From the NCBI RefSeq assembly GCF_008974325.1, contig NZ_BKCG01000001.1:186001-250000 (forward strand): DNA of 64,000 nt, written 5' to 3'. Numbering within the stretch: position 1 is the first letter of the stretch; every line of letters begins with the position of its first letter. The notes beneath the pieces were generated by a model. That model saw nothing but the letters and a program-made list of their open reading frames with translations. It searched no databases and was not told the DNA's origin. The DNA is from Patiriisocius marinus (GTDB lineage: Bacteria > Bacteroidota > Bacteroidia > Flavobacteriales > Flavobacteriaceae). Of this stretch, positions 47,488 through 64,000 are shown piece after piece. The position numbers and the translations under genes are program-made.

Positions 47488-47535
47488 CAAAACTACCATC
47501 GATGGCACTTTTAAAAGATGACATTTATCATCTTT
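47488..47535 (-). promoter_or_regulatory. Promoter of the cbb3 operon with Crp/Fnr-type site
   Basis: On the minus strand a -7 element TAGTTTTG (47495-47488) has no -33 box. Instead the site TGATAAATGTCA (47530-47519 on the minus strand) sits with its centre 29.5 bases upstream of the -7 element, inside a longer inverted repeat AAAGATGA (47514-47521) / TCATCTTT (47528-47535). The geometry matches the other sites of this type in the window and fits a class II activator. Confidence 0.8.
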
Positions 47536-47624
47536 AGGTTTTGACTCATTGATTTCTGTTAAATAAATGTTATTTAAAATTCACAAAAAGCTGAAAACTA
47601 GCTATTTAAATCAATTATAGCCTG

Positions 47625-50036
47625 TTATTTAGATTCATTAAATCTTCTTCCTAAAATATGGGTCCCAATTGTTGTGAACACCACGATACTTATTGAACTT
47701 AAAGGCATTAGAATCGCAGCCACTACTGGAGCTAAGTTTCCTGTAATTGCAAAACCTAAACCTATTAAATTATAGAAAAGAGAGAAAATGAATGCGTACT
47801 TGATCACTTTAATACCTTTGCGAGATAAATTTAAAAACTGTGTAATTTCTTTAAACTTTGAAGCATCTAAAATTCCATCGCAAGCAGGTGAAAAAACATT
47901 CACATTTTCTGAAATTGATATTCCCACATTACTTTGTGCAAGTGCTCCAGCATCATTAAGTCCATCACCAATCATTAAAACATTCTTACCATTATCTTGA
48001 AGTGTTTTTATGTAATCTAATTTATCTTCAGGTTTTTGATTGAAAAGTATTGTAGTGTTTTTAGGAAGTAACGTAGACAAATGTTCTTTCTCACCATCAT
48101 TATCTCCAGAGAGAATAACAATACCTGTAGTCTTTTTCAAGGTATCGAAAACTTCTTTTACACCTTCGCGATACTCATTATAAAACACATAACATCCCTT
48201 GTAAATATTGTCTGTGCTAATATGCACCGCAGTACGTTGATGCGCATCTTCTTGTGTTTTTTTATGAGAAGCATCTACAAAGCCAAAAGAACCTACCTTA
48301 ATCTTGCGATTATTTATTACTCCAGTAATTCCTTGCCCTACTTCCTCTTTAAAGTTGTCTAGAGTTTGAATATTATTTTTATCAAGTATTGCATACAATG
48401 ATCTACTTAGAGGGTGATTTGAAGCCCTTAAAGTACTAGTTAGCAATGCTTTTTCTTCATCATTTAATGCCACACCCTCATATGTAATAGTGTTTTTAAC
48501 ACTTGTAGTTAGTGTTCCTGTTTTATCAAAAACTACAGTATCAATATGAGCTAATTGCTCAATAACTGAACTATTTTTTAAATACAACTTATGTCTTCCA
48601 AAAATGCGAAGTAAGTTCCCTAAAGTAAAAGGTGCCGCCAGTGCAATAGCACAAGGACAAGCAACTATTAGCACTGCAGTAAAAACATTTAATGCTATTG
48701 ATATGTCAATAAACATCCACACAATTGTTGCTAAAATAGCGATGACTAATAAACTCACAGTAAATCGCCTACTTATACTATCAGTAATATTCTCAAAAGC
48801 ACTTTGTTTGTTTTTGCTAAAAATAACATTAGACCATAATTGGGTTAAATAACTCTGCTCAACTGGCTTTAAAACCTCCACTTCAATTACTCCAGCTTGC
48901 TGTCTACCTCCAGCAAAAAGTTGGTCACCAGAAACTTTATTTACAGGTTCAGCTTCTCCTGTAACAAAACTATAATCTATTAAAGCATTCCCTTTTATTA
49001 ATATAGCATCTACTGGTAACAACTCGCTATTTCGTATTAAAATACGATCTCCTTTTTTTAATTCGTATACCTGTGTTTGCTCTTCTTTTTTAATTGAAGA
49101 ATCATTGGTTTCGTTTTTAACAAGACGAGTTACCGCTATAGGGAAATATGATTTATAGTCGCGCTCAAATGATAAAAATGCATAGGTTTTCTGTTGAAAA
49201 AATTTCCCTAACAATAGGAAGAATACTAGCCCCGCCATACTATCAAAAAAGCCAGATCCCCAATCCATAATAATTTCTACAGTAGACCTTATAAATAATA
49301 CCGAAATACCAATTGCAATTGGTACATCGATATTTAAAATATTAGATCGAAGTCCTTTATACGCTGAAATAAAATAATCACGCCCCGAATAAAAAGCAAC
49401 AGGAAGTGCAAAGCAGAACATTAACCATCTAAAAACATGTTTAAATTTTTCTAACCAAAATTCATTGACTTCGAAATATTCCGGAAAGGAAAGAAACATA
49501 ATATTTCCAAAGGCAAAACCTGCAAGTCCTAATTTGTAAATTAAACTCCTATCAATATTTGATTTTTTTTCGGAAGCATCGTCTAATGAAATATATGGTT
49601 CGTAGCCTATTCTTGATAATAAAATTACCAAATCTTGAAGTGATAATATTTCAGAAGAATATGTGATTCGTACAGTTTTCTTCGGAAAGTTAACTTGTGC
49701 AGTTTTTACAGCTGGATTAAGCTTATTTAAGTTTTCTAATACCCAAATGCACGAACTGCAATGAATTGATGGAATTAGCAGCGAAACAACTTGAGTATCT
49801 TGCTCATCAAATTCAAGCAACTTAGCAACGATTTGTTCATTTTCAAGAAAGTCAAATTTCCCTTCTTGTTCCAATGGAGTTGTTCCTGGAGTACGCTCTA
49901 AATCGTAATAGTACGATAGATCGTTATCGTTTAGAATATCGAAAACAGTTTTACAACCATGACAACAAAAAGTTTTGTCTTGGTGTGAGATTACAGTTGT
50001 TCTGCACTCATCACCACAATGGAAACAAGCTGACAT
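47625..50036 (-). CDS. ccoI: CcoI/FixI-type copper P1B-ATPase
   Basis: 803 aa. A Cys-rich N terminus (CFHCGDEC, residues 4-11, and CCHGC at 24-28) is followed by a heavy-metal-associated domain with CSSC (93-96), eight membrane helices, the CPC ion motif (460-462) and the phosphorylation site DKTGTLT (504-510). It exports copper to the periplasmic side for assembly of cbb3 oxidase. It is transcribed divergently from the Crp/Fnr gene, and both promoters share one regulator site. Confidence 0.93.
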   Translation of the reverse strand: MSACFHCGDECRTTVISHQDKTFCCHGCKTVFDILNDNDLSYYYDLERTPGTTPLEQEGKFDFLENEQIVAKLLEFDEQDTQVVSLLIPSIHCSSCIWVLENLNKLNPAVKTAQVNFPKKTVRITYSSEILSLQDLVILLSRIGYEPYISLDDASEKKSNIDRSLIYKLGLAGFAFGNIMFLSFPEYFEVNEFWLEKFKHVFRWLMFCFALPVAFYSGRDYFISAYKGLRSNILNIDVPIAIGISVLFIRSTVEIIMDWGSGFFDSMAGLVFFLLLGKFFQQKTYAFLSFERDYKSYFPIAVTRLVKNETNDSSIKKEEQTQVYELKKGDRILIRNSELLPVDAILIKGNALIDYSFVTGEAEPVNKVSGDQLFAGGRQQAGVIEVEVLKPVEQSYLTQLWSNVIFSKNKQSAFENITDSISRRFTVSLLVIAILATIVWMFIDISIALNVFTAVLIVACPCAIALAAPFTLGNLLRIFGRHKLYLKNSSVIEQLAHIDTVVFDKTGTLTTSVKNTITYEGVALNDEEKALLTSTLRASNHPLSRSLYAILDKNNIQTLDNFKEEVGQGITGVINNRKIKVGSFGFVDASHKKTQEDAHQRTAVHISTDNIYKGCYVFYNEYREGVKEVFDTLKKTTGIVILSGDNDGEKEHLSTLLPKNTTILFNQKPEDKLDYIKTLQDNGKNVLMIGDGLNDAGALAQSNVGISISENVNVFSPACDGILDASKFKEITQFLNLSRKGIKVIKYAFIFSLFYNLIGLGFAITGNLAPVVAAILMPLSSISIVVFTTIGTHILGRRFNESK

Positions 50037-50081
50037 AAAATATTAATTTGCTCAAGCGCTCAACGCTCATTATACCTACTG

Positions 50082-50155
50082 CAAAGATTGCTAACTAAAA
50101 GCACTCATAAAGTGATATATGTCACATAACTAATTTAATAATGTTAGTTCCTTTG
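50082..50155. promoter_or_regulatory. Divergent promoters of ccoI and the Crp/Fnr gene sharing one site
   Basis: The palindrome AGTGATATATGTCACA (50111-50126, core TGATATATGTCA 50113-50124) is centred at 50118.5. The -7 element for ccoI on the minus strand is AATCTTTG (50089-50082) and that for the Crp/Fnr gene is TTCCTTTG (50148-50155). Both lie exactly 29.5 bases from the centre, so one bound dimer can activate both directions. Confidence 0.8.
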
Positions 50156-50175
50156 TAGATACTAAAAATAATAAA

Positions 50176-50877
50176 ATGAACGATTTCAATGAAAGTCGAT
50201 GTGAAAATTGTGTAGTAAGACAATTGAACACACTTAAGGAACTTAGCAAAGAAGAATTAAAGCGAATTTCCGATAGCAAAACTAGCATGTTTATAAAAAA
50301 AGGAGAAGCTATTTTTAAAGAAGGTGAAAAACTAAACGGTGTTTTTTGTATTCGATCAGGTGTTTCAAAATTGTCTAAACTAAGTGATAACGGAAAAGAC
50401 CAAATATTAAAAATTGCCACTAAAGGGGAAGTGATGGGACATCGCTCAGTTATTACTGAAGAGAAGACAAACCTCAGTGCTGTAGCTTTAAATGATATGG
50501 AAGTTTGTTTTATTCCTAAACAACATCTATATGATAGTTTAAATAGTAATATATCATTCACTAAAGCAGTATTAGTGCAAATGGCTGAAGATTTAAAGTT
50601 TGCTGATGAGCTTGTGGTAAACATGGCGCAGAAAACCGTAAAACAACGTATTGCTGAAACCTTAAGATATCTTGAGAATAATTTTGGATTAGACGATGAT
50701 GGTTACCTAAAACTCATCTTAACTAGAGAAGACATTGCTAATATTGTTGGTACTGCTAAAGAAGCTTGCATTAGAACACTTGCTACTTTCAAAAAAGAAG
50801 GATGGATTGTAACAGATGGAAAACGTATTAAAATAGTAGACGAAAAAGCCCTCTATCGATTGATAGAGGGCCTTTAA
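50176..50877 (+). CDS. Crp/Fnr-family transcriptional regulator
   Basis: 233 aa. A cyclic-nucleotide-binding-like beta-roll (about residues 25-125: IKKGEAIFKEGEKLNGVFCI) is followed by the long dimer helix and a winged HTH (LTREDIANIVGTAKEACIRT, residues 182-201). Cys are at 9, 12 (CENC), 58, 111 and 198; the N-terminal CxxC pair and Cys111 are at places where Fnr proteins bind Fe-S, but the four-Cys pattern of E. coli Fnr is not complete. The recognition helix has Glu197 and Arg200, similar to Crp. It probably activates the oxidase genes under low oxygen. The last codons form a terminator (see next entry). Confidence 0.88.
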   Translation: MNDFNESRCENCVVRQLNTLKELSKEELKRISDSKTSMFIKKGEAIFKEGEKLNGVFCIRSGVSKLSKLSDNGKDQILKIATKGEVMGHRSVITEEKTNLSAVALNDMEVCFIPKQHLYDSLNSNISFTKAVLVQMAEDLKFADELVVNMAQKTVKQRIAETLRYLENNFGLDDDGYLKLILTREDIANIVGTAKEACIRTLATFKKEGWIVTDGKRIKIVDEKALYRLIEGL

Positions 50878-50880
50878 TTT
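50848..50880 (+). terminator. Terminator embedded in the 3' end of the Crp/Fnr gene
   Basis: A perfect 10-base stem GCCCTCTATC (50848-50857) / GATAGAGGGC (50862-50871) with loop GATT, then CTTTAATTT. The stem encodes the last residues (ALYRLIEG) and the stop TAA lies in the T-rich tail. The same hairpin can stop the convergent uspA transcript. Confidence 0.8.
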
Positions 50881-50918
50881 ATGAGTTAAATAATAGCTTA
50901 TTTTCCGTAAGCGTAATC

Positions 50919-51743
50919 TTAAATTTTAACTGTAAGTACTGGTAATTTTGAGTGGTTTACTACATCCTCTCCTATACTTCCAGTGAAAAAATGCGCTAAT
51001 CCTCTTCTACCGTGTGTAGGGATTCCAATAATATCGGCTTTTACTTTTTTAGCATAGTTAAAGATTCCTCTCTCAACATTGTAATCTGAATAAATTGCTA
51101 CATCTTCAGGAAGTAATTTATACCCTGTAAGTTGTACAATGAAGTCTACAATACGCTGATCGATTTCCTTTGTGCTTAAGTATTGCTCTCCAGGTTGATT
51201 GATGAATACATTTTTCACTTCAATATTTAAAGATTCGAAAAATGACATTGCCTTTTTGAAAGAAACAATACTTTCCGTTTTGTAATCGCAAGCAAACACT
51301 GCTTTAGTTGGTGTAAATGTGTCTCCACCTTTAATAACTAATACAGGTACTTTTGAGCTACGAACAACTTTCTCAGTATTTGATCCTACAAATACTTCTT
51401 GAAAACCACTACTACCGTGAGAACCCATTACTATTAAATCTGCTTCATATTCCTGAGCCACATCATCAAGTTCACTAAAAATTTTATAATTTTTTACTGT
51501 GGTATGTATAGTTAAACCCTCTAAATAATCTTTATCTAAAAGTTCTTCAAATCTTTTCTGTGTTAGCTTCACAAAAAACACACCTTCCATTGTATCACTT
51601 TCTTTGGTAAGGTTTGCTTCACTTAAACCCATCATATGCACAGCAACAAGTTCTGCATTTTGTTTTTTAGCTATTTGCGCAGCTACTTTAAGTGCATTTT
51701 CTGAATATTCTGAGAAATCTACGGGTACGATAATTGTTTTCAT
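50919..51743 (-). CDS. Universal stress protein, two-domain
   Basis: 274 aa with two UspA repeats. The first ends DLIVMGSHGSSGFQEVFVGS (the ATP-binding GxxG...GS pattern) and the second ends DIIGIPTHGRRGLAHFFTGS, with the final beta strand VVNHSKLPVLTVKI. Such proteins help survival under energy limitation. A Crp/Fnr-type site precedes it with the same spacing as at the oxidase genes, so it is probably induced at low oxygen. Confidence 0.9.
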   Translation of the reverse strand: MKTIIVPVDFSEYSENALKVAAQIAKKQNAELVAVHMMGLSEANLTKESDTMEGVFFVKLTQKRFEELLDKDYLEGLTIHTTVKNYKIFSELDDVAQEYEADLIVMGSHGSSGFQEVFVGSNTEKVVRSSKVPVLVIKGGDTFTPTKAVFACDYKTESIVSFKKAMSFFESLNIEVKNVFINQPGEQYLSTKEIDQRIVDFIVQLTGYKLLPEDVAIYSDYNVERGIFNYAKKVKADIIGIPTHGRRGLAHFFTGSIGEDVVNHSKLPVLTVKI

Positions 51744-51769
51744 CTTTAATATATTAGAAGGTTATACGC

Positions 51770-51812
51770 CAAAGGTACTTTCTTCATACACTCCTAAAAA
51801 TGATAAAAATCA
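51770..51812 (-). promoter_or_regulatory. uspA promoter with Crp/Fnr-type site
   Basis: On the minus strand TGATTTTTATCA (51812-51801) lies with its centre 29.5 bases from the -7 element TACCTTTG (51777-51770). No -33 box is needed. Confidence 0.75.
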
Positions 51813-51827
51813 TCTTTAATAAACTGT

Positions 51828-54281
51828 TTAATTTATAACACTACTCCTACTTCCTTTTTTACCTCTAAACAAAGCTGGGATTTGGTTATAGTCTAAAAAG
51901 TATTGCAGTTTAATAGATAAAGTATGATTTATGGGCTGATCAAACAAAGTTCCAATACTTTGAGTGTACGAGTCTCTTGCCTCGTTATCTTGATTAAACA
52001 ATTGGTTTCTATAAAGAGCCGTTAGAAAACTACCTGGCGCAAATTGCCAAGAATAACTCAAATCTAAATTCCATGTAGAGAAATTAATATCTGGATTATT
52101 TTCGATACTCTCTGTAGTATATCCTGAAGTTGAAGAAACTGTACCGTCATCATTTAGTGAAAACAATTGTTGATCATACTTTACAACTCCCCAATAATTT
52201 CGCAATGACAATGCTAAAGTATTGTATGGATTAAAGTTATAATTTGCACTTATTGACTGCTCAACTTCAATACGCTTTCGGTCGCCAAAAATTACATCAT
52301 CATCCGTTTTTGTAACAAAACCTCTATCGCCACTATAATACTCTCTATCAATAAAATAAGAAATTAAAAACTTGTCACTTATACGGTACCTTGGTCCAAA
52401 ACCTATCCAGTAATTCACATAATCACGTCCTTCGTCTAAAAAGGTTTCTACCCCACTATACAAGTTTATCGCTAGTTTTTTATTAGCATTTGACTCAAAC
52501 CATAAATTTGTATTTACACCATCTTGAGTAATAAAATAGCTTCCCTGTTTTCGGGGTTCGAAATAATCGTATTGCTTTCCCGGTTGAAGATTTAGACTAA
52601 TCCCAAATGAATTTAACTTAGTTGTTGTTCCGTTAAAATTTCCGCCAAATCCAAATCCAGTAAACGTACTTGGATCAGCCAATCGTGTATAATTAACGTA
52701 TGCTCCTATATAGTAACTATTGAAAATTCCTTCAGGTTCAAAAATTCTATAGCTACCATCAACACCAAAGTTGTTATAATTGTTTCTAAACAACAATCCT
52801 AAATCATTAATATCATAATCCTTATCAGCATAACTATGATCAAAACTATAACGGTATTTACCGTGTATTTTTCTTATGTATAAAAATGAACTATATCCAG
52901 TTTGGGTTCCTGTTTCTAGATTGAGGTTACTCATTTTCACCTCAGCGCGAACATTATAGGTATTACGCTTGTTAGTGATACTTGATATCAAACCTGTAAC
53001 ATTTGCGTCTCTAAAGCTCCCTTCACGCATAACGTTCGTATTAATAATTCCTACAGATGAGTTGCCATTAAATTGTTGGTCTGCAACTAAAATGTTATAG
53101 TTTGCAAATGGTTCCACATCTACTTGTCTAATTTCGCCAGTTATGGCATCTTCTATAGTCGCTCTAGCACGTTCCGTAAATGAGTTAAAAATACCCAAAC
53201 CGAGTCCTTTTTTTGTTCTTCCTGAAACTTTAATTGCATTTAACACTTTCACTGTTTCAGGATATTCAATCACCTCTTCATTTTCATTTAAATCTGGATC
53301 TCTTGTTGGCGAACTACCTACACGTCTTGAAAAAAACAGATTTCCTTTATTAAAAAGATCCACCCCTTCAGTAAAAAACTGTCGTTGCTCACTGAAGGTT
53401 TGCTCAAACGGACCCAAGTTTAGCGACACATCATCAAAACCAGCTTGGCTAAAATCTGGTATTAGTGTGGCATCTAGTGTAAAGTTTTCGGTGATTCCAT
53501 ATTTTATATCTAATCCTGCATTAAAATTAGATTCGTGATCTCCATCATATATATTTTGAACGGTCGAAACAAAAGGATAAAAAGATAGCCTCACTGGAGG
53601 TTCAAGATCTTTAAGTCCATTTAACTCCCCGTGATATAAACCAATATTCCCAATAGTAGGGTCTAATGGATTCCAAGTATACTGCGATTCATCACGTCTA
53701 AATCTCCTATGAAACTGGATTCCCCAAGTTTCTAAATTATTATTGTCAAATCGTAAGCAACGATATGGTATTTTCATTTCAAGTGACCAACCATTATCAT
53801 TAATTTTAACAGCACTATCCCAAACAGCATTCCAACCAAAATCTTCACCTACACTAGGATTTGCAATGGCATCGGCTTGTGTACCGGATGCAAAAACAAA
53901 AAACTCAGTATCATTTTGAGCATCATTATTGGGGTTAATTACAATTCCAAAAAAATCAGCATTCCCAAAATTATCTCTTGACGAAAGCTGTTTATCAATT
54001 TTTAATGGGTCATCATATAGAAAAGCAGATATATAAAGTGCAGCATCATCATACGTCATTTTAACAATTGTTTTATTTGCCTCCGTATCCTCAACTCCTA
54101 CATTGGGTCTAAACTGTGTAAATCCCTTTGCTTCATCTACATTCTTCCACGCAACGTCATCTAAAACACCATCTATTTTAGGCGCATTATCAGTTCTAGA
54201 AATGATAAGCGATTTTTTTTCTTGACCCAGGCTGCTCAAAGAAAACAGCATGGCAAGCGCTAATAAAAAATTGAATTTCAT
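51828..54281 (-). CDS. DUF5916 protein with CBM9-like domain, outer-membrane beta-barrel
   Basis: 817 aa with a signal peptide (MKFNFLLALAMLFSLSSLG). The N-terminal domain (about 28-215: APKIDGVLDDVAWKNVDEAK, EMKIPYRCLRFD) resembles carbohydrate-binding family 9. The rest is DUF5916, predicted to be an outer-membrane barrel (FEQTFSEQRQFFTEGVDLFN, FFSRRVG). The family is common in Bacteroidota with no settled function. Unlike its neighbours it has no Crp/Fnr-type site. Confidence 0.8.
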   Translation of the reverse strand: MKFNFLLALAMLFSLSSLGQEKKSLIISRTDNAPKIDGVLDDVAWKNVDEAKGFTQFRPNVGVEDTEANKTIVKMTYDDAALYISAFLYDDPLKIDKQLSSRDNFGNADFFGIVINPNNDAQNDTEFFVFASGTQADAIANPSVGEDFGWNAVWDSAVKINDNGWSLEMKIPYRCLRFDNNNLETWGIQFHRRFRRDESQYTWNPLDPTIGNIGLYHGELNGLKDLEPPVRLSFYPFVSTVQNIYDGDHESNFNAGLDIKYGITENFTLDATLIPDFSQAGFDDVSLNLGPFEQTFSEQRQFFTEGVDLFNKGNLFFSRRVGSSPTRDPDLNENEEVIEYPETVKVLNAIKVSGRTKKGLGLGIFNSFTERARATIEDAITGEIRQVDVEPFANYNILVADQQFNGNSSVGIINTNVMREGSFRDANVTGLISSITNKRNTYNVRAEVKMSNLNLETGTQTGYSSFLYIRKIHGKYRYSFDHSYADKDYDINDLGLLFRNNYNNFGVDGSYRIFEPEGIFNSYYIGAYVNYTRLADPSTFTGFGFGGNFNGTTTKLNSFGISLNLQPGKQYDYFEPRKQGSYFITQDGVNTNLWFESNANKKLAINLYSGVETFLDEGRDYVNYWIGFGPRYRISDKFLISYFIDREYYSGDRGFVTKTDDDVIFGDRKRIEVEQSISANYNFNPYNTLALSLRNYWGVVKYDQQLFSLNDDGTVSSTSGYTTESIENNPDINFSTWNLDLSYSWQFAPGSFLTALYRNQLFNQDNEARDSYTQSIGTLFDQPINHTLSIKLQYFLDYNQIPALFRGKKGSRSSVIN

Positions 54282-54422
54282 TGGTTTAGTGGTTGGTTGT
54301 TACATTATAGACACTAAAATTCTATTTGTGTTACACTTAAAACCTATATTTCTTTTTAAAAGTTCTTCTGAAATTTTAAGAATTTAACAAATCATATCAT
54401 TCATTTACAATTGTCAAGAGCT

Positions 54423-54453
54423 AAAAAAACCTTCACATTTCTGCGAAAGTTTT
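54423..54453 (-). terminator. Terminator after the cation ATPase gene
   Basis: On the minus strand a stem AAAACTTTCGCA / TGTGAAGGTTTT with two wobble pairs and a GAAA tetraloop, followed by a seven-T run. It ends the leftward ATPase gene that stops at 54496. Confidence 0.75.
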
Positions 54454-54495
54454 CTTTTAACGAGGCTTATTTATGATTAATTTCTAAACTAATTA

Positions 54496-57006
54496 TTAGT
54501 TAATGGTTTTCATCTTTTGACGTTTAATAAACTTGACAATTTCATACCAAATAACTGATAAAAATCCCATCCCAACACTTATAGCTATGAGTGAAATTGG
54601 TAATATTTCGAATTGAAAAAATTGATTTATTGGTTTGAAAAACAATAATAGTACTGCTATAAACACAGTAATTCCAGTTACTATTGGTATCAATTTATTT
54701 TTGTAAGTTATAGTCGTCAATACTGAATAGAAAAAAGAACGATTCACAAAGGTTAGAAATATATTAGCCGAAATAAGTACCGTAAATACCATCGTTCTAG
54801 TAACTGATTCATTAAAACCTTGCGACACTGCATATTGATACGTCAATAACACACCCAAAGTTATCATCAACCCTTGAAAAACACTAGTAGTTAATTCTTT
54901 TCTATTAAAAAAAGACGCTGTAAAAGGTCTTGGTTTTTGGTGCATTGTATTTTTCTCCATTGGTTCATTTTCATACACAATTGAGCAGGTAGGTCCCATT
55001 ATTAACTCTAACAAAATAATATGAACTGGCGATAATATATTAGGAAATACCCATCCTAAAACCAAAGGCATAAACACCGTAAGGATGATTGGTATATGTA
55101 TTGAAATTATATATTGAATTGCCTTTTTTAAATTACTATAAATTTTTCTCCCCATACCAACTGCATCAACCATTTTAGAAAAATCATCATCGACTAATAT
55201 CAGTGACGCTGTATTTTTCGCTATTTCTGTTCCTTTTTTACCCATAGCAATACCTATGTGAGCTGTTTTTAATGCTGGACCATCGTTTACACCATCTCCC
55301 ACCATTGCCACAATTTCTCCGTTCGCTTTTAAGGCATTAACAATTTTAAGTTTCGCATCTGGAAACATTCTTGTAAAAATTTGTTTTTCTAATACAGTCT
55401 TAGATAGTTCCGTTGGCGACAATTTCATTAATTGATCGCCAGAAATACTCCGTTCATAGCCTCTAAAACCTATTTGTTTAGCAATTGCTGTAGTTGTTGC
55501 AGCATTGTCTCCCGTGATAATTTTCACATTGATTCCTGCTTTATGAAAAGCTTCAAAAACTGATTGGATATTCTTTTTTGGTGGATCATAAAAAGCCACT
55601 AACCCAATAAAATCAAATTTAAAATCCTGCTGTTTTTCTGGAAAGTTATCTCCTTCAAAATCAGCTTTACCTACTCCTAAAATACGATACCCGTCACTAG
55701 AGAGTATTGTAATAGCCTGTTGTACTTCCTCCTTTTCCATTGCAGAAAGCTTAGATACTTTTATTAAAGCTTCAGGCGCACCTTTTGCAGCTATTATTCT
55801 ATTTCCGTTATTATTTTGAAAAACGTGTGTCATCATTGGAGGTTTCCCCTCTAATGGATACTCATGATATATATTATAATTTGGTCTTTCATCATTTAAA
55901 AAGTGATTACTATAACTTTCATGCAAAGCAATTTCCATAGGATCAAATGGAATAGGTTCACTCGCCCACATTGAAATTTCAACTAATTTTTTATCCTCTT
56001 TAGTAAAGGTTTCGGAAGTTGAAATTATCTTTTTGTTTTTAAAAGTGTACAATTTAGCGAGCGTCATTTTATTCTCGGTTATTGTACCTGTTTTATCAAC
56101 ACAAATAATAGAAGCACTTCCTAAAGTTTCGACAGTTTTCATTTGTTTTACTACCACTCCCATCCTCATTAATCTCCAGGCTCCCATGGCCATAAACGTT
56201 GTAAACGCAACTGGAATTTCCTCAGGTAAAATACTCATAGCTAGTGTTAGCGCCTTAAGTAAACTATCTAACACGTTAAATGATTTAAAATAATTGATTG
56301 CCCACACTAACACGAAAACCAACACTCCACCAACCACCATTTTCTTTACAAAATTGTTGATTTGAACTTCTAAAGGTGTTTTCTCGTCAAGTACATCTTC
56401 AAGGCTTTTCCCTATTTTTCCTAATTTAGTATTTAGCCCTATACTAGTTACGGTTGCAATCGCTAAACCACTAGTCACCATTGCTCCCATATAAATGGTG
56501 CTATTATCTAAATCAGGATTTTTATAAACCGAAAAAGATTCTCCTGTGAGAATCGACTCATTCACTGAAAAATCATTTGAGTGTACAATTACCCCATCGG
56601 CTGGTATTGTTGTGCCTTCTTCCACCATCATACTATCACCCACTACAATTTCGGTAGTTTTTATTTCGGTTACTTCACCATCTCTTATTACTTTACAATT
56701 AGGATGTGTGTAAATTTTCAGCTTTGCTAAAGCGTCTCTACTTCTCGAATCTTGGTACAATGAAATTGCTGAAACAAATACAATTGCGATGGCTAAAAAA
56801 ATACCATCATCGTAATTTGCTGTAATAAAATAAATTGATGAGGTAACTAAAAGCAACACTACCATTGGCTCTTTTAGCAAGTTTTTTAATGCAAACCACA
56901 ACCCACTTTCTTTTTTAAAATTTAATACATTCTCACCGTGTACTCTACGTGATTCTAGTACTTGGTCACTAGTAAGGCCTTTTATATTTTGATTTTCTAT
57001 GGACAT
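54496..57006 (-). CDS. Cation-transporting P2-type ATPase (Ca-ATPase-like)
   Basis: 836 aa. The order is an N-terminal cation-ATPase segment (IKGLTSDQVLESRRVHGENV), the actuator TGES, the membrane ion site ILPEEIPVAF, the phosphorylation site DKTGTITENK, the nucleotide domain, the hinge GDGVNDGPALK, then C-terminal helices. It resembles bacterial calcium-type ATPases, but the PEEIP sequence of helix 4 differs from the SERCA PEGLP, so the ion is not certain. It lies divergent from the next gene with a shared Crp/Fnr-type site. Confidence 0.87.
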   Translation of the reverse strand: MSIENQNIKGLTSDQVLESRRVHGENVLNFKKESGLWFALKNLLKEPMVVLLLVTSSIYFITANYDDGIFLAIAIVFVSAISLYQDSRSRDALAKLKIYTHPNCKVIRDGEVTEIKTTEIVVGDSMMVEEGTTIPADGVIVHSNDFSVNESILTGESFSVYKNPDLDNSTIYMGAMVTSGLAIATVTSIGLNTKLGKIGKSLEDVLDEKTPLEVQINNFVKKMVVGGVLVFVLVWAINYFKSFNVLDSLLKALTLAMSILPEEIPVAFTTFMAMGAWRLMRMGVVVKQMKTVETLGSASIICVDKTGTITENKMTLAKLYTFKNKKIISTSETFTKEDKKLVEISMWASEPIPFDPMEIALHESYSNHFLNDERPNYNIYHEYPLEGKPPMMTHVFQNNNGNRIIAAKGAPEALIKVSKLSAMEKEEVQQAITILSSDGYRILGVGKADFEGDNFPEKQQDFKFDFIGLVAFYDPPKKNIQSVFEAFHKAGINVKIITGDNAATTTAIAKQIGFRGYERSISGDQLMKLSPTELSKTVLEKQIFTRMFPDAKLKIVNALKANGEIVAMVGDGVNDGPALKTAHIGIAMGKKGTEIAKNTASLILVDDDFSKMVDAVGMGRKIYSNLKKAIQYIISIHIPIILTVFMPLVLGWVFPNILSPVHIILLELIMGPTCSIVYENEPMEKNTMHQKPRPFTASFFNRKELTTSVFQGLMITLGVLLTYQYAVSQGFNESVTRTMVFTVLISANIFLTFVNRSFFYSVLTTITYKNKLIPIVTGITVFIAVLLLFFKPINQFFQFEILPISLIAISVGMGFLSVIWYEIVKFIKRQKMKTIN

Positions 57007-57099
57007 TCACTTCAATATTTTGATTCTAAATAACTAGTGCTATTTGAGTTTGAACCTTTTAATTTCTTGTAACTTTATTTACAAGAAATATTTGCGCAT

Positions 57100-57173
57100 C
57101 AAAATTAGAGATAGCGGCATTACCTTAATATGATTAAAATCAGTTAAAAAAGGCTTTTATATGCTGAAATTTG
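57100..57173. promoter_or_regulatory. Divergent promoters of the cation ATPase and the DUF6134-cls operon, shared site
   Basis: TGATTAAAATCA (57131-57142) is centred at 57136.5. On the minus strand the -7 element TAATTTTG (57107-57100) and on the plus strand GAAATTTG (57166-57173) each lie exactly 29.5 bases from the centre, as at the ccoI/Crp-Fnr pair. Confidence 0.78.
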
Positions 57174-57209
57174 CCTGAGAGAACATTCGCTAAAACCATT
57201 ACTATCACT

Positions 57210-57806
57210 ATGATTTGGAACTTAATATTTATTAATCTTTTCGTGTTTTCGTTAAATCCTATTAGCATTTCAGACAAAACACTTCACTTTGATATTGTTC
57301 ATAAAAACAATATAGTTGGAGATTTAATAGCCTCTAAGCGTGTTTTTGATTCTAAAACCTATTATGAAAGTTCTACAACTATCAAAACTAAAATTATAAG
57401 AGAATTTAGTGTCAACTACACATACAATGTGCAATTTTATAATGAAAATTTAGAAAAAGCTGACGTTCACATTACTGTAAATGATAAGCCACATGCTGAA
57501 ACACTAACAAAATGGAACAACACAAATTACCAAATTGTAAAAGATAACACTGTAGAAAACCCAATAAACAAGACTATTAATTACGCGACTATACAGTTGT
57601 ATTTTAAAGAACCTAAAAACATTAAATCTTGCTACTCAGAGCAAGATGCTAGTTTTAATACCATTGTATCAATGGGAGATCACGTCTATAAAAAAGTGAA
57701 CTCAAAAGGAAATGAAAATCTTTATTTTTATGAAAAAGGGACTTTGAAAAAAGCAACAATTGACGGAGGACTTATAAAGTTTGAAATTATAAGCACTAGA
57801 ATATGA
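57210..57806 (+). CDS. DUF6134-like secreted protein
   Basis: 198 aa from the ATG at 57210. An in-frame TTG at 57171 overlaps the -7 element and is rejected. The N terminus (MIWNLIFINLFVFSLNPI) is a signal sequence. The mature part is beta-rich (LHFDIVHKNNIVGDLIASKR, TIKTKIIREFSVNYTYNVQF), the pattern of the DUF6134 family, which has no known function. Its last four bases overlap the cardiolipin synthase start (ATGA). Confidence 0.7.
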   Translation: MIWNLIFINLFVFSLNPISISDKTLHFDIVHKNNIVGDLIASKRVFDSKTYYESSTTIKTKIIREFSVNYTYNVQFYNENLEKADVHITVNDKPHAETLTKWNNTNYQIVKDNTVENPINKTINYATIQLYFKEPKNIKSCYSEQDASFNTIVSMGDHVYKKVNSKGNENLYFYEKGTLKKATIDGGLIKFEIISTRI

Positions 57807-59239
57807 CGCTCTTTCTTATTTTGTATTTTCTTGTAGCTTTCATAATAATGGGAAAGTTATTACTTTATGGAATAAGGCCTACTAAAACACTCGCCTGGTT
57901 GTTAGCTATATTCACAGTTCCTGTGGGTGGAATGCTTTTTTACTTTATTCTTGGGCGAAATAGAAGAAAAAACAAATTCTATACACTCAAAAAAACCAAA
58001 GAAATATCGCAATACTATAAAAAAGTTGAAACCTATTATAATACTCTTGATAGTGCCAAAAATAGCAATGTACCACTTGCGATTAAAAAACATATTAAAC
58101 TAGCTAAGCTAATTACTAAAGGATCTAAATTTCTTCCATCTCTAGGAAATGAGTTAATTCCATTAAAAAATGGAAAAGCTACCTTCGATGCTATATTTAC
58201 CGCTTTATCAACTGCTAAGAAATTTATACATATTCAGTATTATATTTTTGAAGAAGGCGATTTAGCCGAAAAGTTCAAAACCTTATTAATTAGTAAAGCA
58301 AAAGAAGGTGTAGAGGTACGTTTTCTATATGATGCTTTAGGTAGTAGAACTTTAAGCAACAACTACATAAATAGTATTAAAAAAGAAGGGATAAAGGTTT
58401 ACAGTTTTTTACCGATGCGATTAGGTAGACTCTTATCTTCCATTAATTATAGAAACCATCGAAAAATAATTATAGTCGATGGTATTGTTGGGTTTACGGG
58501 TGGCATCAACGTATCAGACAAATATATAAAAGGTGATCCAGATTTAGGCAATTGGTATGATATGCATCTTCAATTAAGTGGAGCTATTGTTAATAGTTTA
58601 CAAGCTGTTTTCGCAATGGATTGGACTTTTGCAAGTGGAAATGACACTCTTTTAAACACAAAATATATTGTAAAACAGACTACAACAGGAAACGTTATTG
58701 CTCAAATTGTCGCAAGTGGTCCTGACTCTGATTTCTCCTCCATACAACAACTTTATTTTTCAATAATTAATAGTGCTAAAGAGTACGTTTATATTACAAA
58801 CCCATACATCATTCCGGGAGAAGCTCTCTTAGAAGCGTTACAAGTTGCAGCAATGAGTGGTATAGATATTAGGTTATTACTTTCTAAAAATTCAGATAGC
58901 TTTCTAGTTAAATGGAATGTGCGTTCACACTTCGAGCAGTTACTTGAAGCTGGAGTTAAAATATATTTATATCCAGATGGTTTTCTACATAGTAAAGTGA
59001 TCGTTTCAGATAATGCGTTAACGTCCATTGGCACCGCTAATTTAGACATTAGAAGTTTTGAGCAAAACTATGAAGTAAATGCACTTATTTATGATACTAA
59101 AATAACCAAAAAACTTAAAAGTGATTTTTTAAAGGACTGCGATAAAAGTAGTCAGATAGATTATAACCTATATCTAAAGAGGTCAAAAATAGACCGAATA
59201 AAAGAAGGGCTCGCTAAAGTTTTTAGCCCTATATTATAA
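57803..59239 (+). CDS. cls: Cardiolipin synthase
   Basis: 478 aa. Two N-terminal membrane helices (LILYFLVAFIIMGKLLLYGI and LAWLLAIFTVPVGGMLFYFI) and two phospholipase D HKD motifs: NHRKIIIVDGIVGFTGG and LHSKVIVSDNALTSIGTANL. It joins two phosphatidylglycerol molecules at the inner membrane. It is the second gene of a Crp/Fnr-controlled operon, so lipid composition may change at low oxygen. Confidence 0.94.
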   Translation: MTLFLILYFLVAFIIMGKLLLYGIRPTKTLAWLLAIFTVPVGGMLFYFILGRNRRKNKFYTLKKTKEISQYYKKVETYYNTLDSAKNSNVPLAIKKHIKLAKLITKGSKFLPSLGNELIPLKNGKATFDAIFTALSTAKKFIHIQYYIFEEGDLAEKFKTLLISKAKEGVEVRFLYDALGSRTLSNNYINSIKKEGIKVYSFLPMRLGRLLSSINYRNHRKIIIVDGIVGFTGGINVSDKYIKGDPDLGNWYDMHLQLSGAIVNSLQAVFAMDWTFASGNDTLLNTKYIVKQTTTGNVIAQIVASGPDSDFSSIQQLYFSIINSAKEYVYITNPYIIPGEALLEALQVAAMSGIDIRLLLSKNSDSFLVKWNVRSHFEQLLEAGVKIYLYPDGFLHSKVIVSDNALTSIGTANLDIRSFEQNYEVNALIYDTKITKKLKSDFLKDCDKSSQIDYNLYLKRSKIDRIKEGLAKVFSPIL

Positions 59240-59302
59240 TGTAATGTAGCATTTCTTATTAAAATTCAACTTCATATCTTTGAATCACCCAATACCATTA
59301 TA

Positions 59303-60067
59303 ATGAAATTAGGATTAGTACTATCTGGCGGAGGAGCTCGTGGAGCAGCACATATAGGGGCAATTAAAGCATTTGAAGAATACGGTATTTCGCCTACACA
59401 TGTTTCAGGAACAAGTGCAGGAGCGATTGTTGGCGCATTATACGCTGCGGGAATACCTTGGTCTGAAATTTTAAATTTTTTTAAAACCATCTCTATTTTT
59501 CAAACAACTAGATATGCACGGAATATGCCTGGTTTTATAAATTCGGGTAAGTTTTATGATGATTTAAAACAGTTTCTTCCTGATGACAATTTTAATGCAC
59601 TAGGGAAAGAGCTTTTTATAACCGCTGCTAACGTAATTGATGGTACTTCTAAAACTTTTAGCAAAGGACAACTTATAAAACCCATTATAGCTTCAGCTTC
59701 GTTTCCTGGTGTGTTTACTCCTACCGAAATTAATGGGAAGTTTTATATAGACGGTGGGACTTTAAATAATTTTCCTGTAGAACCACTGAAGGAAGAGTGC
59801 GACAAAATAATAGGTATTTACGTCAACCCTTTAAAAAAGATAACAATTAAAGACTTAAAATACTCTTTTGCAGTTGTAGAAAGAGCTTATAAAATTAAAG
59901 TTGCCTCAGAGTCTATGCTAAAATTTCCTGATTGTGATTTAGTAATATACCCTGAAGATTTATTAAAATTTGGGACTTTTGATATGAAAAACGTAGATGC
60001 AATTTTTAACGTAGGTTATACTTCAACAATTAAAATGCTAGAAGAAAACAAGTCCGTGTTTATCTAA
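59303..60067 (+). CDS. Patatin-like phospholipase
   Basis: 254 aa. The oxyanion hole is GGGARGAAHIG (residues 9-19), the nucleophile elbow is GTSAGAIVG (catalytic Ser) and the catalytic Asp is in IDGGTLNN. These define a patatin hydrolase (RssA-like). It lies 63 bases after cls with a -7-like TATCTTTG (59275-59282) between, so it may have a separate promoter. It probably acts on membrane lipids. Confidence 0.92.
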   Translation: MKLGLVLSGGGARGAAHIGAIKAFEEYGISPTHVSGTSAGAIVGALYAAGIPWSEILNFFKTISIFQTTRYARNMPGFINSGKFYDDLKQFLPDDNFNALGKELFITAANVIDGTSKTFSKGQLIKPIIASASFPGVFTPTEINGKFYIDGGTLNNFPVEPLKEECDKIIGIYVNPLKKITIKDLKYSFAVVERAYKIKVASESMLKFPDCDLVIYPEDLLKFGTFDMKNVDAIFNVGYTSTIKMLEENKSVFI

Positions 60068-60130
60068 TATTCAAAAAAAATGTTTTGTAAAAATTGTGAA
60101 ATTTCAGTAATAAAATTCATTTCTAACAGC

Positions 60131-60173
60131 TGATATTTATCATTTATTATATTACAGAAAGTAGTCACCTTTA
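60131..60173 (+). promoter_or_regulatory. Crp/Fnr-type site before the sigma-like gene
   Basis: TGATATTTATCA (60131-60142), centre 60136.5, then a weak -7 element CACCTTTA (60166-60173) at exactly 29.5 bases. The TTTA differs from the TTTG consensus, but the position fits. Confidence 0.6.
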
Positions 60174-60198
60174 TATATAATTTATAAAGTATTTGACT

Positions 60199-60975
60199 AT
60201 GAAACCTAATATCTCACTCTACAAAAACAAACAAGAGTTTCGTTTATCCTTTACAAGAACTTTCCCAGAATTAGTTAAATCTAAAAAGGAAGGCAATCAA
60301 GAATTTTTTAATCAGCAAGTTTTAAAAATTACACCCGATATCCGAAAATATATTAACGGGCAATTTAACACTGCAATTAAAAAAGGTCACTTTCCAAAAA
60401 ACAAGTATAAAGCAGATGATATTATTGATCAGCTTTTTATTGAAATATACAATCATATTGAAGAAGTAAATCATGAGGATGAATTTTATGTTTGGCTTTT
60501 GAAAAAAACAAACGAATTACTTGATGATGTTTTTGTCAATGAGGAATTTGACGAATTGTTTTTCAATAACATTGATGATTACTCTAAACCTGAGTGGGAT
60601 GAGCTACAGGAAAAGTATAGCACTGATGGTGGTGGCGATTTACTAATGATTGAAGACTTAGACGATATGTCATACAACCACAATGACTATAGTTTAAATC
60701 ATGTGTTTGTTGAAGAAAAAGAAAATGATTTAGTTAAAAAAATAGATAAAAATTTAAAAGATGAGGAGGTGCAAAAACACATAGAAATGGTATTACATAA
60801 TCTTCCAACTTCTATGCGGAACATTTTTGAACTTTTCACTAAACAGCATTTGGAAATAGAAGAAATAGCTCAAATTAAAAATATCACTATTGATAAGGCT
60901 AAACAGTTATTAAAAGATGCTAAAAAAGCATTACAACTTAGTCTTTTAAACAGATATCCTAAAGAGGATTATTAA
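60199..60975 (+). CDS. Sigma-70-like regulator with region 4 HTH
   Basis: 258 aa from the ATG at 60199; a TTG six bases upstream is not needed. The C terminus (LPTSMRNIFELFTKQHLEIE, then EIAQIKNITIDKAKQLLKDA) is a sigma region 4 helix-turn-helix. The N-terminal half (ITPDIRKYINGQFNTAIKKG) may be a diverged region 2. An acidic linker separates them (DDYSKPEWDELQEKY). It is an ECF-like sigma factor or a sigma-related protein. No anti-sigma gene is adjacent. A Crp/Fnr-type site lies upstream. Confidence 0.65.
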   Translation: MKPNISLYKNKQEFRLSFTRTFPELVKSKKEGNQEFFNQQVLKITPDIRKYINGQFNTAIKKGHFPKNKYKADDIIDQLFIEIYNHIEEVNHEDEFYVWLLKKTNELLDDVFVNEEFDELFFNNIDDYSKPEWDELQEKYSTDGGGDLLMIEDLDDMSYNHNDYSLNHVFVEEKENDLVKKIDKNLKDEEVQKHIEMVLHNLPTSMRNIFELFTKQHLEIEEIAQIKNITIDKAKQLLKDAKKALQLSLLNRYPKEDY

Positions 60976-60989
60976 GCTAAACTTCTTTA

Positions 60990-62264
60990 TTAAAAGACAC
61001 TAACTAACACCCAAATAACTCCTATTATAATTACGCTACCAAAAGCAAAACCCACATACTTAGCAGTAGTCTTTGAGCCTTTAAATATCGCAATACCTAA
61101 TTTGACAAGCATATTGCTAATGGTTGCTGCTATTATAACAGATGACGCAAGAGCAAGTTTATCTCCTTCGAGAGAGAATTTCGCCATACTAATGGTAATT
61201 GCATCAGTATCTGCTAAACCAGCAATTAAAGCAGAATAATACAATCCGCTTTCACCAAAAAACTGATTGCTATAAAAAACAGCGAAAAGTATGATAACAT
61301 ATACAGCTCCAAATTTTATAGCATTCAGTACATTTAATGGGTTACCTAATTTAATATTGGTATCTGGTTTAGGGTCATCCTTTCTCATTAATAATAAGGT
61401 TGCCGTAACACAAATTACTGTCAAAATCCCAAAAGGGATTGCGAGGTTTATTAAAATAGTATTGTTGAATATATAGGCTAACAAAGCAAGCCTAGGAAAC
61501 ATAATTGCCGATGCGACAATTATTCCTGCACTGTATTTTTTAGAAAGTTCTGGAGACTCTTTACTACTTGAGGCATAATTCCAGGCAACGGCTGTACTAG
61601 ATATGAGTCCTCCAAGGATGGCCGTAAGTATAATGCCTTTTTTTGACCCTACAAATTTCACTAAAAAGTATCCAATAAAGTTTAGAAAGGATACAATTAC
61701 AATTATAGAACCTATCTCAAAAGGGTTTATTAAACCATCTGGCCCATATGGTTTGTCAGGAAGGAAAGGGAGTATTAATAACGCTATAATAGTAAACTTA
61801 ATAAACGCAAAAAGCTCTTGAGAAGTTATATTACTTATAACAGATCTAAACCTTGTTTTTAATGAAAGTAACGTAACAATAATTACTGCTGTTGCAACAG
61901 CATCTCTATAGTATTCAGCCGAGACCATTATCCCTAAAACAAAAGTTGCTATTAAGGCTAAATTAGTCGTTAACCCTTGACCATATTCCTCTTGTTTTTG
62001 AGAAAAATGATAAAGCGCTAAAAATAAAATAAACGTACCTAGGCTTGTTATTAATAGCCAAGGAGTAAATAATTGAGTAAGACTAGCTATTGAGAAACCA
62101 AGGATTGCAACAATAGGGAATGTCCTTATTCCTGCAAATCCCTTTTCCTCTTTAAGTTTGTCGTATTCCCTTTCTAGGCCAATGATAAGGCCTATTCCTA
62201 AGCTTATCAAAACCCCTAACATATAGGGCCCAACTAGTACATTTATATCTTGGTATGTCTGCAT
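60990..62264 (-). CDS. MgtC/SapB-type membrane protein with DUF4010 domain
   Basis: 424 aa with about 11 membrane helices. The N terminus is MgtC/SapB-like (LGVLISLGIGLIIGLEREYD), followed by a DUF4010 segment (GLADTDAITISMAKFSLEGD). The function is not settled; MgtC relatives help growth in low magnesium. It is transcribed together with the small gene upstream (6-base gap) and converges on the sigma-like gene. Confidence 0.82.
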   Translation of the reverse strand: MQTYQDINVLVGPYMLGVLISLGIGLIIGLEREYDKLKEEKGFAGIRTFPIVAILGFSIASLTQLFTPWLLITSLGTFILFLALYHFSQKQEEYGQGLTTNLALIATFVLGIMVSAEYYRDAVATAVIIVTLLSLKTRFRSVISNITSQELFAFIKFTIIALLILPFLPDKPYGPDGLINPFEIGSIIVIVSFLNFIGYFLVKFVGSKKGIILTAILGGLISSTAVAWNYASSSKESPELSKKYSAGIIVASAIMFPRLALLAYIFNNTILINLAIPFGILTVICVTATLLLMRKDDPKPDTNIKLGNPLNVLNAIKFGAVYVIILFAVFYSNQFFGESGLYYSALIAGLADTDAITISMAKFSLEGDKLALASSVIIAATISNMLVKLGIAIFKGSKTTAKYVGFAFGSVIIIGVIWVLVSVF

Positions 62265-62270
62265 CTAGTA

Positions 62271-62657
62271 TTACATATACTTCTCAAGAAACCTGAAAAA
62301 CTCTTTTTTAAGCTCAGAGTATATATGTCTTTGTGTTTCTATTTTATTTCTAAACGCCACATGCTCTTTTGTTAAATGTATATCAAGCGCATCTTCACCT
62401 GTTTTGCTTTGTCCAGCAATACGAGTTTCGTGTTTATCTATAGTTTCCTGTAAATCTTGAATTACTCCTCCGTGAAGTATAAACTCGTTTTGATAGTGCT
62501 CTAATTGCGCAAGAACATCCTTATTTGTCCATCGTGAAACAAGTTCACTTAACTTGCTATTGAAAAACTTTAACTCATCTTTCCAAAATGCAAGTTCCCC
62601 TTTCCACTGCTCGTGTTCAAAGTGCATACTCGCATTTTCTAAAACATCTTTTTTCAT
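62271..62657 (-). CDS. Hypothetical helical protein, first gene of the DUF4010 operon
   Basis: 128 aa, soluble and almost entirely alpha-helical (HFEHEQWKGELAFWKDELKF, LQETIDKHETRIAGQ, FRNKIETQRHIYSELKKEFF), probably a coiled-coil bundle. No signal peptide, no known motif. It starts the operon with the MgtC/DUF4010 gene and is preceded by a perfect 18-base palindrome of the Crp/Fnr type. Confidence 0.7.
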   Translation of the reverse strand: MKKDVLENASMHFEHEQWKGELAFWKDELKFFNSKLSELVSRWTNKDVLAQLEHYQNEFILHGGVIQDLQETIDKHETRIAGQSKTGEDALDIHLTKEHVAFRNKIETQRHIYSELKKEFFRFLEKYM

Positions 62658-62705
62658 ATTAATTGTATTTAAAATTAAACTTTAGAATCACTTTAAAAAG
62701 CAACG

Positions 62706-62751
62706 TAAAGGTTTGTAATAAAAACAATATATAAACTGATTTAAATCAGTT
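62706..62751 (-). promoter_or_regulatory. Crp/Fnr-type site before the DUF4010 operon
   Basis: AACTGATTTAAATCAGTT (62734-62751) is a perfect 18-base palindrome with core TGATTTAAATCA, centre 62742.5. A weak -7 element AACCTTTA (62713-62706, minus strand) lies 29.5 bases away, the same spacing and nearly the same sequence as CACCTTTA before the sigma-like gene. Confidence 0.6.
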
Positions 62752-63698: not shown

Positions 63699-64000
63699 TT
63701 AGTGTATTAATTTATAAGCTTGTTTCGCTATTTCTAATTCTTCATTAGTAGGGACCACTATAATTTTAACTTTAGATGCCGTGGTATTGATTTCGTTTAT
63801 CCCACTAGATCTTTGTTCGTTTTTAGATTCATCTAGCGCAATTCCGAAGTATTCCATTTCATCACAAACTAGTGTACGAATCACACTTGAGTTTTCTCCT
63901 ATACCGGCTGTGAATACAATTGCATCTAATCCATTCATTGACGCCGCGTAAGCCCCAATGTATTTTTTAATTCGGTAAGCATTCATTTGCAAAGCTAAAA
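63699..64000 (-). CDS. ackA: Acetate kinase, C-terminal part
   Basis: The frame continues past the right edge of the window; about 100 codons at the C terminus are present. AYRIKKYIGAYAASMNGLDA and IVFTAGIGENSSVIR are hallmark segments of acetate kinase. The enzyme interconverts acetyl phosphate and acetate with ATP formation, useful when oxygen is low. The apparent TTG start at 63992 is not the real start, which lies outside the window. Confidence 0.93.
   Translation of the reverse strand, partial: LALQMNAYRIKKYIGAYAASMNGLDAIVFTAGIGENSSVIRTLVCDEMEYFGIALDESKNEQRSSGINEINTTASKVKIIVVPTNEELEIAKQAYKLIH

Follow-up and report, generated by a model that had tools for sequence, protein, structure and literature searches.

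The window, the whole 64,000-nucleotide stretch of Patiriisocius marinus DNA analysed here, carries a cbb3 oxidase operon, the ccoI gene and a gene for a Crp/Fnr-type regulator (hereafter the 50176 regulator, from its start position), together with six palindromic operators and eight promoters:

45049-47253, minus strand: ccoNO fusion gene, gene 1 of the cbb3 operon (COX1 and FixO matches)
47488-47495, minus strand: -7 element TAGTTTTG of the cbb3 operon (29.5 bases from centre)
47519-47530, minus strand: operator TGATAAATGTCA of the cbb3 operon (palindrome scan and spacing)
47625-50036, minus strand: ccoI, copper P-type ATPase (reading frame and family match)
50082-50089, minus strand: -7 element AATCTTTG of ccoI (29.5-base spacing)
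50113-50124, no single strand: operator common to ccoI and the regulator gene (palindrome and spacing; kept in relatives)
50148-50155, plus strand: -7 element TTCCTTTG of the regulator gene (29.5-base spacing)
50176-50877, plus strand: Crp/Fnr-type regulator with invariant C9, C12, C58 and C111 (Pfam, alignment, fold match)
50919-51743, minus strand: uspA, universal stress protein (reading frame and family match)
51770-51777, minus strand: -7 element TACCTTTG of uspA (29.5-base spacing)
51801-51812, minus strand: operator of uspA (palindrome and spacing)
57100-57107, minus strand: -7 element TAATTTTG of the cation ATPase gene (29.5-base spacing)
57131-57142, no single strand: operator common to the cation ATPase and DUF6134-cls (palindrome and spacing)
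57166-57173, plus strand: -7 element GAAATTTG of DUF6134-cls (29.5-base spacing)
60131-60142, plus strand: operator of the sigma-like gene (palindrome and spacing)
60166-60173, plus strand: -7 element CACCTTTA of the sigma-like gene (29.5-base spacing)
62706-62713, minus strand: -7 element AACCTTTA of the DUF4010 operon (29.5-base spacing)
62737-62748, minus strand: operator of the DUF4010 operon (palindrome and spacing)

Each of the eight promoters has its -7 element at one fixed distance from a palindrome, exactly 29.5 bases separating the palindrome centre from the outer edge of the element. A preliminary description of this DNA had proposed this geometry, and we re-found its six palindromes and eight -7 elements at the same positions. 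The two operators it placed midway between divergent promoters (50113-50124 and 57131-57142) do have a -7 element at 29.5 bases on both sides, and a reading of the eight 8-mers agrees with its count of six TTTG and two TTTA; the full TAnnTTTG is present in only three of the eight. The start of DUF6134 is likelier to be the ATG at 57210, the frame from the TTG at 57171 overlapping the -7 element. The sigma-like protein (60193-60975) shows region-4-type similarity only, below the Pfam cut-off, and its long N-terminal part is unmatched.

How often does such spacing occur elsewhere? The window holds nine TGAYN4RTCA palindromes, giving 18 flanks; 8 of these 18 have TTTR at an offset of 33.5 bases, whereas other offsets average 0.46 such flanks and never exceed 3. 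The three remaining palindromes (26708, 26732 and 53536, the last inside a listed reading frame) have no TTTR at this offset. In the complete genome (3.56 Mb), 12 of the 95 matches to TGATN4RTCA-N12..42-TTTG fall at the 29.5-base spacing, the 30 other spacings having a mean of 2.77 and a maximum of 6 (Poisson P of 3e-5 for the 12). For two of the 12 (C3:343181 and C5:159752), the fit of the neighbours is not clear, and about 2.8 would be expected by chance. With the pattern TANNTTTG, half of the 16 matches (8) have this spacing. Among the 14 relatives, out of 38 searched, whose matches were listed in full, the same spacing accounts for 41 of 146 matches (other spacings: mean 3.5, maximum 8), and a spacing of 24 is slightly raised (7 against the mean of 3.5). 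Finally, 120 genomes of the family, from 119 genera, yielded 510 matches to the exact pattern against 27.6 per neighbouring spacing, about an 18-fold excess; the next twenty spacings together sum to 551, neighbouring spacings average 0.20-0.24 matches per genome, and the backward control gave 10. The geometry of the window promoters is not due to chance, as the preliminary description had surmised from its precision, and the whole-genome scan did not find the same spacing equally often near unrelated genes.

The site between ccoI and the regulator gene could be followed in relatives. A scan with the regulator protein produced 80 loci, mostly from Flavobacteriaceae genera, of which three lack the site. 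In each of the remaining 77, one palindrome lies upstream of the regulator gene, with ccoI across it in 76 and a contig start in the last. This set is rich in Maribacter, Allomuricauda, Flagellimonas and Arenibacter, so the 77 loci are not independent events. On the ccoI side, TTTG is found at exactly 33.5 bases in 76 loci and TTTA in one, hence in 77 of 77, a conservation that goes beyond the preliminary description. The regulator side has TTTG at 33.5 in 46 loci and TTTA in three (49 of 77), leaving 28 relatives in which the regulator's own promoter lacks the geometry; no other offset exceeded five. The symmetric arrangement proposed for this site is therefore frequent but not universal. A smaller set of 30 loci (27 parsed, one without the site) had TTTR on the far side in 25 of 26 cases and on the regulator side in 7 of 26. 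Six of the 77 loci have a gap of at least 300 bases, and there the site is near ccoI.

Operators with TTTG on both sides number 121, in 91 of 397 family genomes, against 7 in 5 genomes for the backward control. Thirty of these two-sided loci were checked. Fifteen have ccoI on one side, and the regulator is opposite in 14 of those (12 within 100 bases, 2 about 800 bases away). Two further loci recall the window, with the cation ATPase in one and the sigma-like gene in the other; other pairs include Rrf2 with cytochrome c, ferredoxin with a 2-oxoacid:ferredoxin oxidoreductase-type protein, and ResB. Twelve of the 30 had no probe match, and one (L249) a weak match; in the 12, flanking frames were examined by reading, and a family scan covered ten proteins drawn from six of these loci. 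In five loci (L080, L115, L120, L238 and L239), a two-sided operator adjoins ccoI and the regulator is about 800 bases off.

Among the first 102 of the 510 family sites, A and T dominate the N4 core; the base after RTCA is T in 76% of cases, and T-rich positions come next. Does this stretch conceal a -33 box? If a TTTG sat at -33 with a spacer of 19 bases, its last position would be G, which is found in only 4% of these 102 sites, so the preliminary statement that -33 boxes are missing holds; a weak or absent upstream box is a class II trait. The hidden-box explanation was rejected, as a T-rich stretch (T in 64-79% at offsets 8.5-11.5) also flanks 28 one-sided operators on the side that has no promoter. 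Being present there as well, the T-rich flank would instead be part of an extended operator, roughly AAAA-N2-TGAY-N4-RTCA-N2-TTTT.

The 50176 regulator has a Crp/Fnr fold with cNMP-like and HTH domains (Pfam; fold match to 2gau and to Aliivibrio fischeri FNR, 5e44; predicted structure with mean pLDDT 78.8 and pTM 0.61). Its cysteines C9, C12, C58 and C111 are invariant in 81 of 81 sequences. In the alignment with A. fischeri FNR, C9, C12 and C111 align with three cysteines known as cluster ligands; an invariant Asn occupies the position of the fourth, and C58 is an additional cysteine. The four invariant cysteines are thus not arranged like the cluster cysteines of E. coli-type FNR, a feature that the preliminary description does not mention. 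The protein is probably an oxygen-labile Fe-S sensor, and it is a fair guess that its cluster would have a changed ligand set. Of the 72 genomes with a four-cysteine relative, two have no exact site; these two (G022 and G124) have relatives at 65% and 60% identity and no exact N23 site.

Is this protein the sole regulator? Forty-two family genomes have no close relative of it; 24 of these give a weaker match, which in 20 lies within a frame of 350-385 residues. The copy in our own genome (C5:165832-166875) is a receiver-cNMP-HTH_Crp fusion. Its recognition helix (ATESLIR) resembles those of the relatives (ATESAIR or ATESCIR) and of the 50176 regulator itself (TAKEACIR). We compared 21 receiver-Crp loci, namely our own and 20 from the 53 other genomes with a match. 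A histidine kinase gene is located just upstream in 21 of 21, and a correctly spaced operator occurs 12-73 bases past the matched end of the receiver-Crp gene in 20 of 21. In our own genome, the gene for a PAS-PAS histidine kinase (L055:8316-10879, contig C5), whose first PAS domain matches FixL (1d06, E 1.2e-15), adjoins the fusion gene, and a correctly spaced operator follows. All 21 of the 21 kinases keep the proximal His of FixL-type PAS domains, and 18 keep the distal Arg; PAS domains that are not known to bind heme can carry such motifs as well.

Site numbers follow the presence of the two regulators (at least 39% identity, at E 1e-30 for the four-cysteine protein or E 1e-60 for receiver-Crp; raw genome counts, kinship ignored). 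Exact sites average 6.79 in the 28 genomes with both regulators (no zero), 3.98 in the 44 with the four-cysteine protein only (2 zeros), 5.15 in the 26 with receiver-Crp only (no zero) and 0.50 in the 22 with neither (16 zeros). In this last group, 6 of the 11 sites are in one genome, G073 (82% complete, 6% contaminated); many of its genomes are small, and the seven of at least 3.0 Mb hold one site altogether.

The receiver-Crp fusion, paired with a FixL-like kinase, thus probably uses the same operator as the 50176 regulator, and a second regulator of this kind is also new relative to the preliminary description. The latter had pointed to the gene at 50176 as the regulator, which is supported insofar as a Crp/Fnr regulon is concerned, but this gene is probably not alone, since the receiver-Crp-only genomes keep sites in 26 of 26 cases. 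The alternative, in which the four-cysteine protein alone runs the regulon and receiver-Crp has other targets, draws on the operator upstream of the 50176 gene itself and on the sites retained where this protein occurs by itself. We consider it unlikely in view of the weaker receiver-Crp matches and the site counts by regulator presence, the alike recognition helices, and the operator that follows the receiver-Crp gene at nearly every locus.

The predicted second system recalls the FixL-FixJ-FixK cascade of rhizobia, in which a FixL PAS kinase, a receiver and a Crp/Fnr-type output control cbb3 targets. The same elements are found here, namely a FixL-like PAS kinase, a receiver domain, a Crp/Fnr-type output and cbb3 genes among the targets. 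However, receiver and Crp/Fnr output are here in one protein, and heme binding is putative.

What does the distance of 29.5 bases mean? Mapped starts in Flavobacterium psychrophilum place the sigma-A box TAnnTTTG at -12 to -5 (PMC9723704). If the -7 box of our promoters sits there too, the operator centre, 29.5 bases outward from -12, is at -41.5. Crp/Fnr proteins classically occupy this position at class II promoters, so the mechanism would be of a known kind: of the 23 FNR-activated E. coli promoters whose start is known, 19 have a site within 4 bases of -41.5 (PMC3688515). The regulon with fixed geometry and divergent pairs that had been proposed is thus well supported, but its geometry is not new. 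The layout itself is known, but its base-exact form and its pairing with promoters that lack a -33 box are unusual. In common with the class II promoters of E. coli FNR, our promoters would have a Crp/Fnr dimer site at or near -41.5, and the regulator aligns with FNR. They differ in their TAnnTTTG-like partner promoter lacking a -33 box, their base-exact spacing at 77 of 77 orthologous sites, their operator (TGAY-N4-RTCA with T-rich flanks, against TTGAT-N4-ATCAA) and the cysteine set of the regulator. The divergent pairs have a counterpart in the Alphaproteobacterium Dinoroseobacter shibae, where one Fnr/Dnr site between divergent genes (nirS-nosR2, hemA3-dnrE) was shown to activate two divergent promoters; unlike here, the two starts lie at unequal distances from the site (39.5 and 41.5 bases), and several Crp/Fnr regulators use these sites (PMC5398030).

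The data of the preliminary description do not tell activation from repression, and in some one-sided relatives the site is 41-49 bases from the regulator start codon, where a dimer could hinder the regulator gene. That the sites are repressor operators is nevertheless quite improbable: an exact -41.5 position ahead of a -7 element with no -33 box is an activator layout, and repression would not call for a distance kept to the base at several hundred sites. We give practically no credit to a chance selection of fitting palindromes and TTTR motifs, both common in A/T-rich DNA (TGATN4RTCA alone has 395 strand matches in our genome against 329 for the backward control), which the spacing histograms already contradict, with one of 31 spacings standing out in our own genome and about 18-fold over its neighbours in the family, as does the unbroken spacing on the ccoI side.

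We thus favor a low-oxygen activation regulon with class II operators at -41.5 and two regulators probably feeding them, a reading we hold to be likely on the strength of the sequence comparisons. These establish the geometry, its recurrence in the family, its link to regulator presence, the resemblance of the recognition helices and the target genes; binding, activation, the oxygen signal, the Fe-S cluster and heme are inferred. The two four-cysteine genomes that have no exact site, and the 28 relatives without the geometry at the regulator's own promoter, count against this reading. A Crp/Fnr-type dimer would bind (A-rich)-TGAY-N4-RTCA-(T-rich) centred at -41.5, where contacts with sigma and the RNA polymerase alpha subunit could make up for the lack of a -33 box in these TAnnTTTG-type promoters of Bacteroidota. 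Given the symmetry of the dimer, a single midway operator could activate two divergent promoters. Two inputs would converge on the same operators, the four-cysteine FNR-like protein and the receiver-Crp fusion coupled to the FixL-like PAS kinase. More tentatively, and with somewhat less than even confidence, we propose a general model for Flavobacteriaceae: a single low-oxygen regulon built on a rigid class II operator that two sensors share, where one symmetric dimer may serve two divergent promoters at once. One sensor would be an FNR relative whose cluster is held by new ligands (C9, C12, C58, C111), the other a FixL/FixJ-FixK system condensed so that a single protein combines receiver and Crp output.

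Oxygen control in Bacteroidota is little described. Searches aimed at it in open-licence literature listed no title or abstract on an Fnr regulon that responds to oxygen in a flavobacterium; the closest report concerns a CRP/FNR homologue from Flavobacteriales, regarded there as a carbon sensor of MalR-like type (PMC8510549). With a base-exact operator-promoter rule, candidate low-oxygen genes, including nosZ, could be recognised in the sequences of many species; the rule also points to class II activation at promoters lacking a -33 box. Both the four-cysteine protein and the receiver-Crp/kinase pair stand out as sensor candidates open to testing.

Most targets, together with cbb3 and ccoI, fit a coherent low-oxygen set. 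Consistently, oxygen limitation strongly induces the cbb3 oxidase in F. psychrophilum (PMC9723704). Outside the window, the operator past the receiver-Crp gene precedes five usp genes. Another, at C9:126032-126074 (L058), is correctly spaced ahead of a run with a Sec-dependent nosZ (TIGR04246, 930 bits) and cytochrome c-like and fasciclin-like genes (both by eye). Further targets are a Pyr_redox_2 oxidoreductase with a ferredoxin-like frame behind it (the latter by eye), and a thioredoxin-type gene, after which come frames resembling OsmC and a permease (both by eye). The small protein at C12:20706, behind a site, gave no family match. One TTTA-type target run comprises an ArsC-like gene (below cut-off), a pta-like gene (AAA_26 and DRTGG) and acetate kinase. 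The TTTA-type site heading this acetate kinase run is at C1:253764-253806, outside the window; the run begins in L053 (C1:250001-258000), and the frame 63699-63992, at the right end of the window, looks like the end of the acetate kinase gene of this run.
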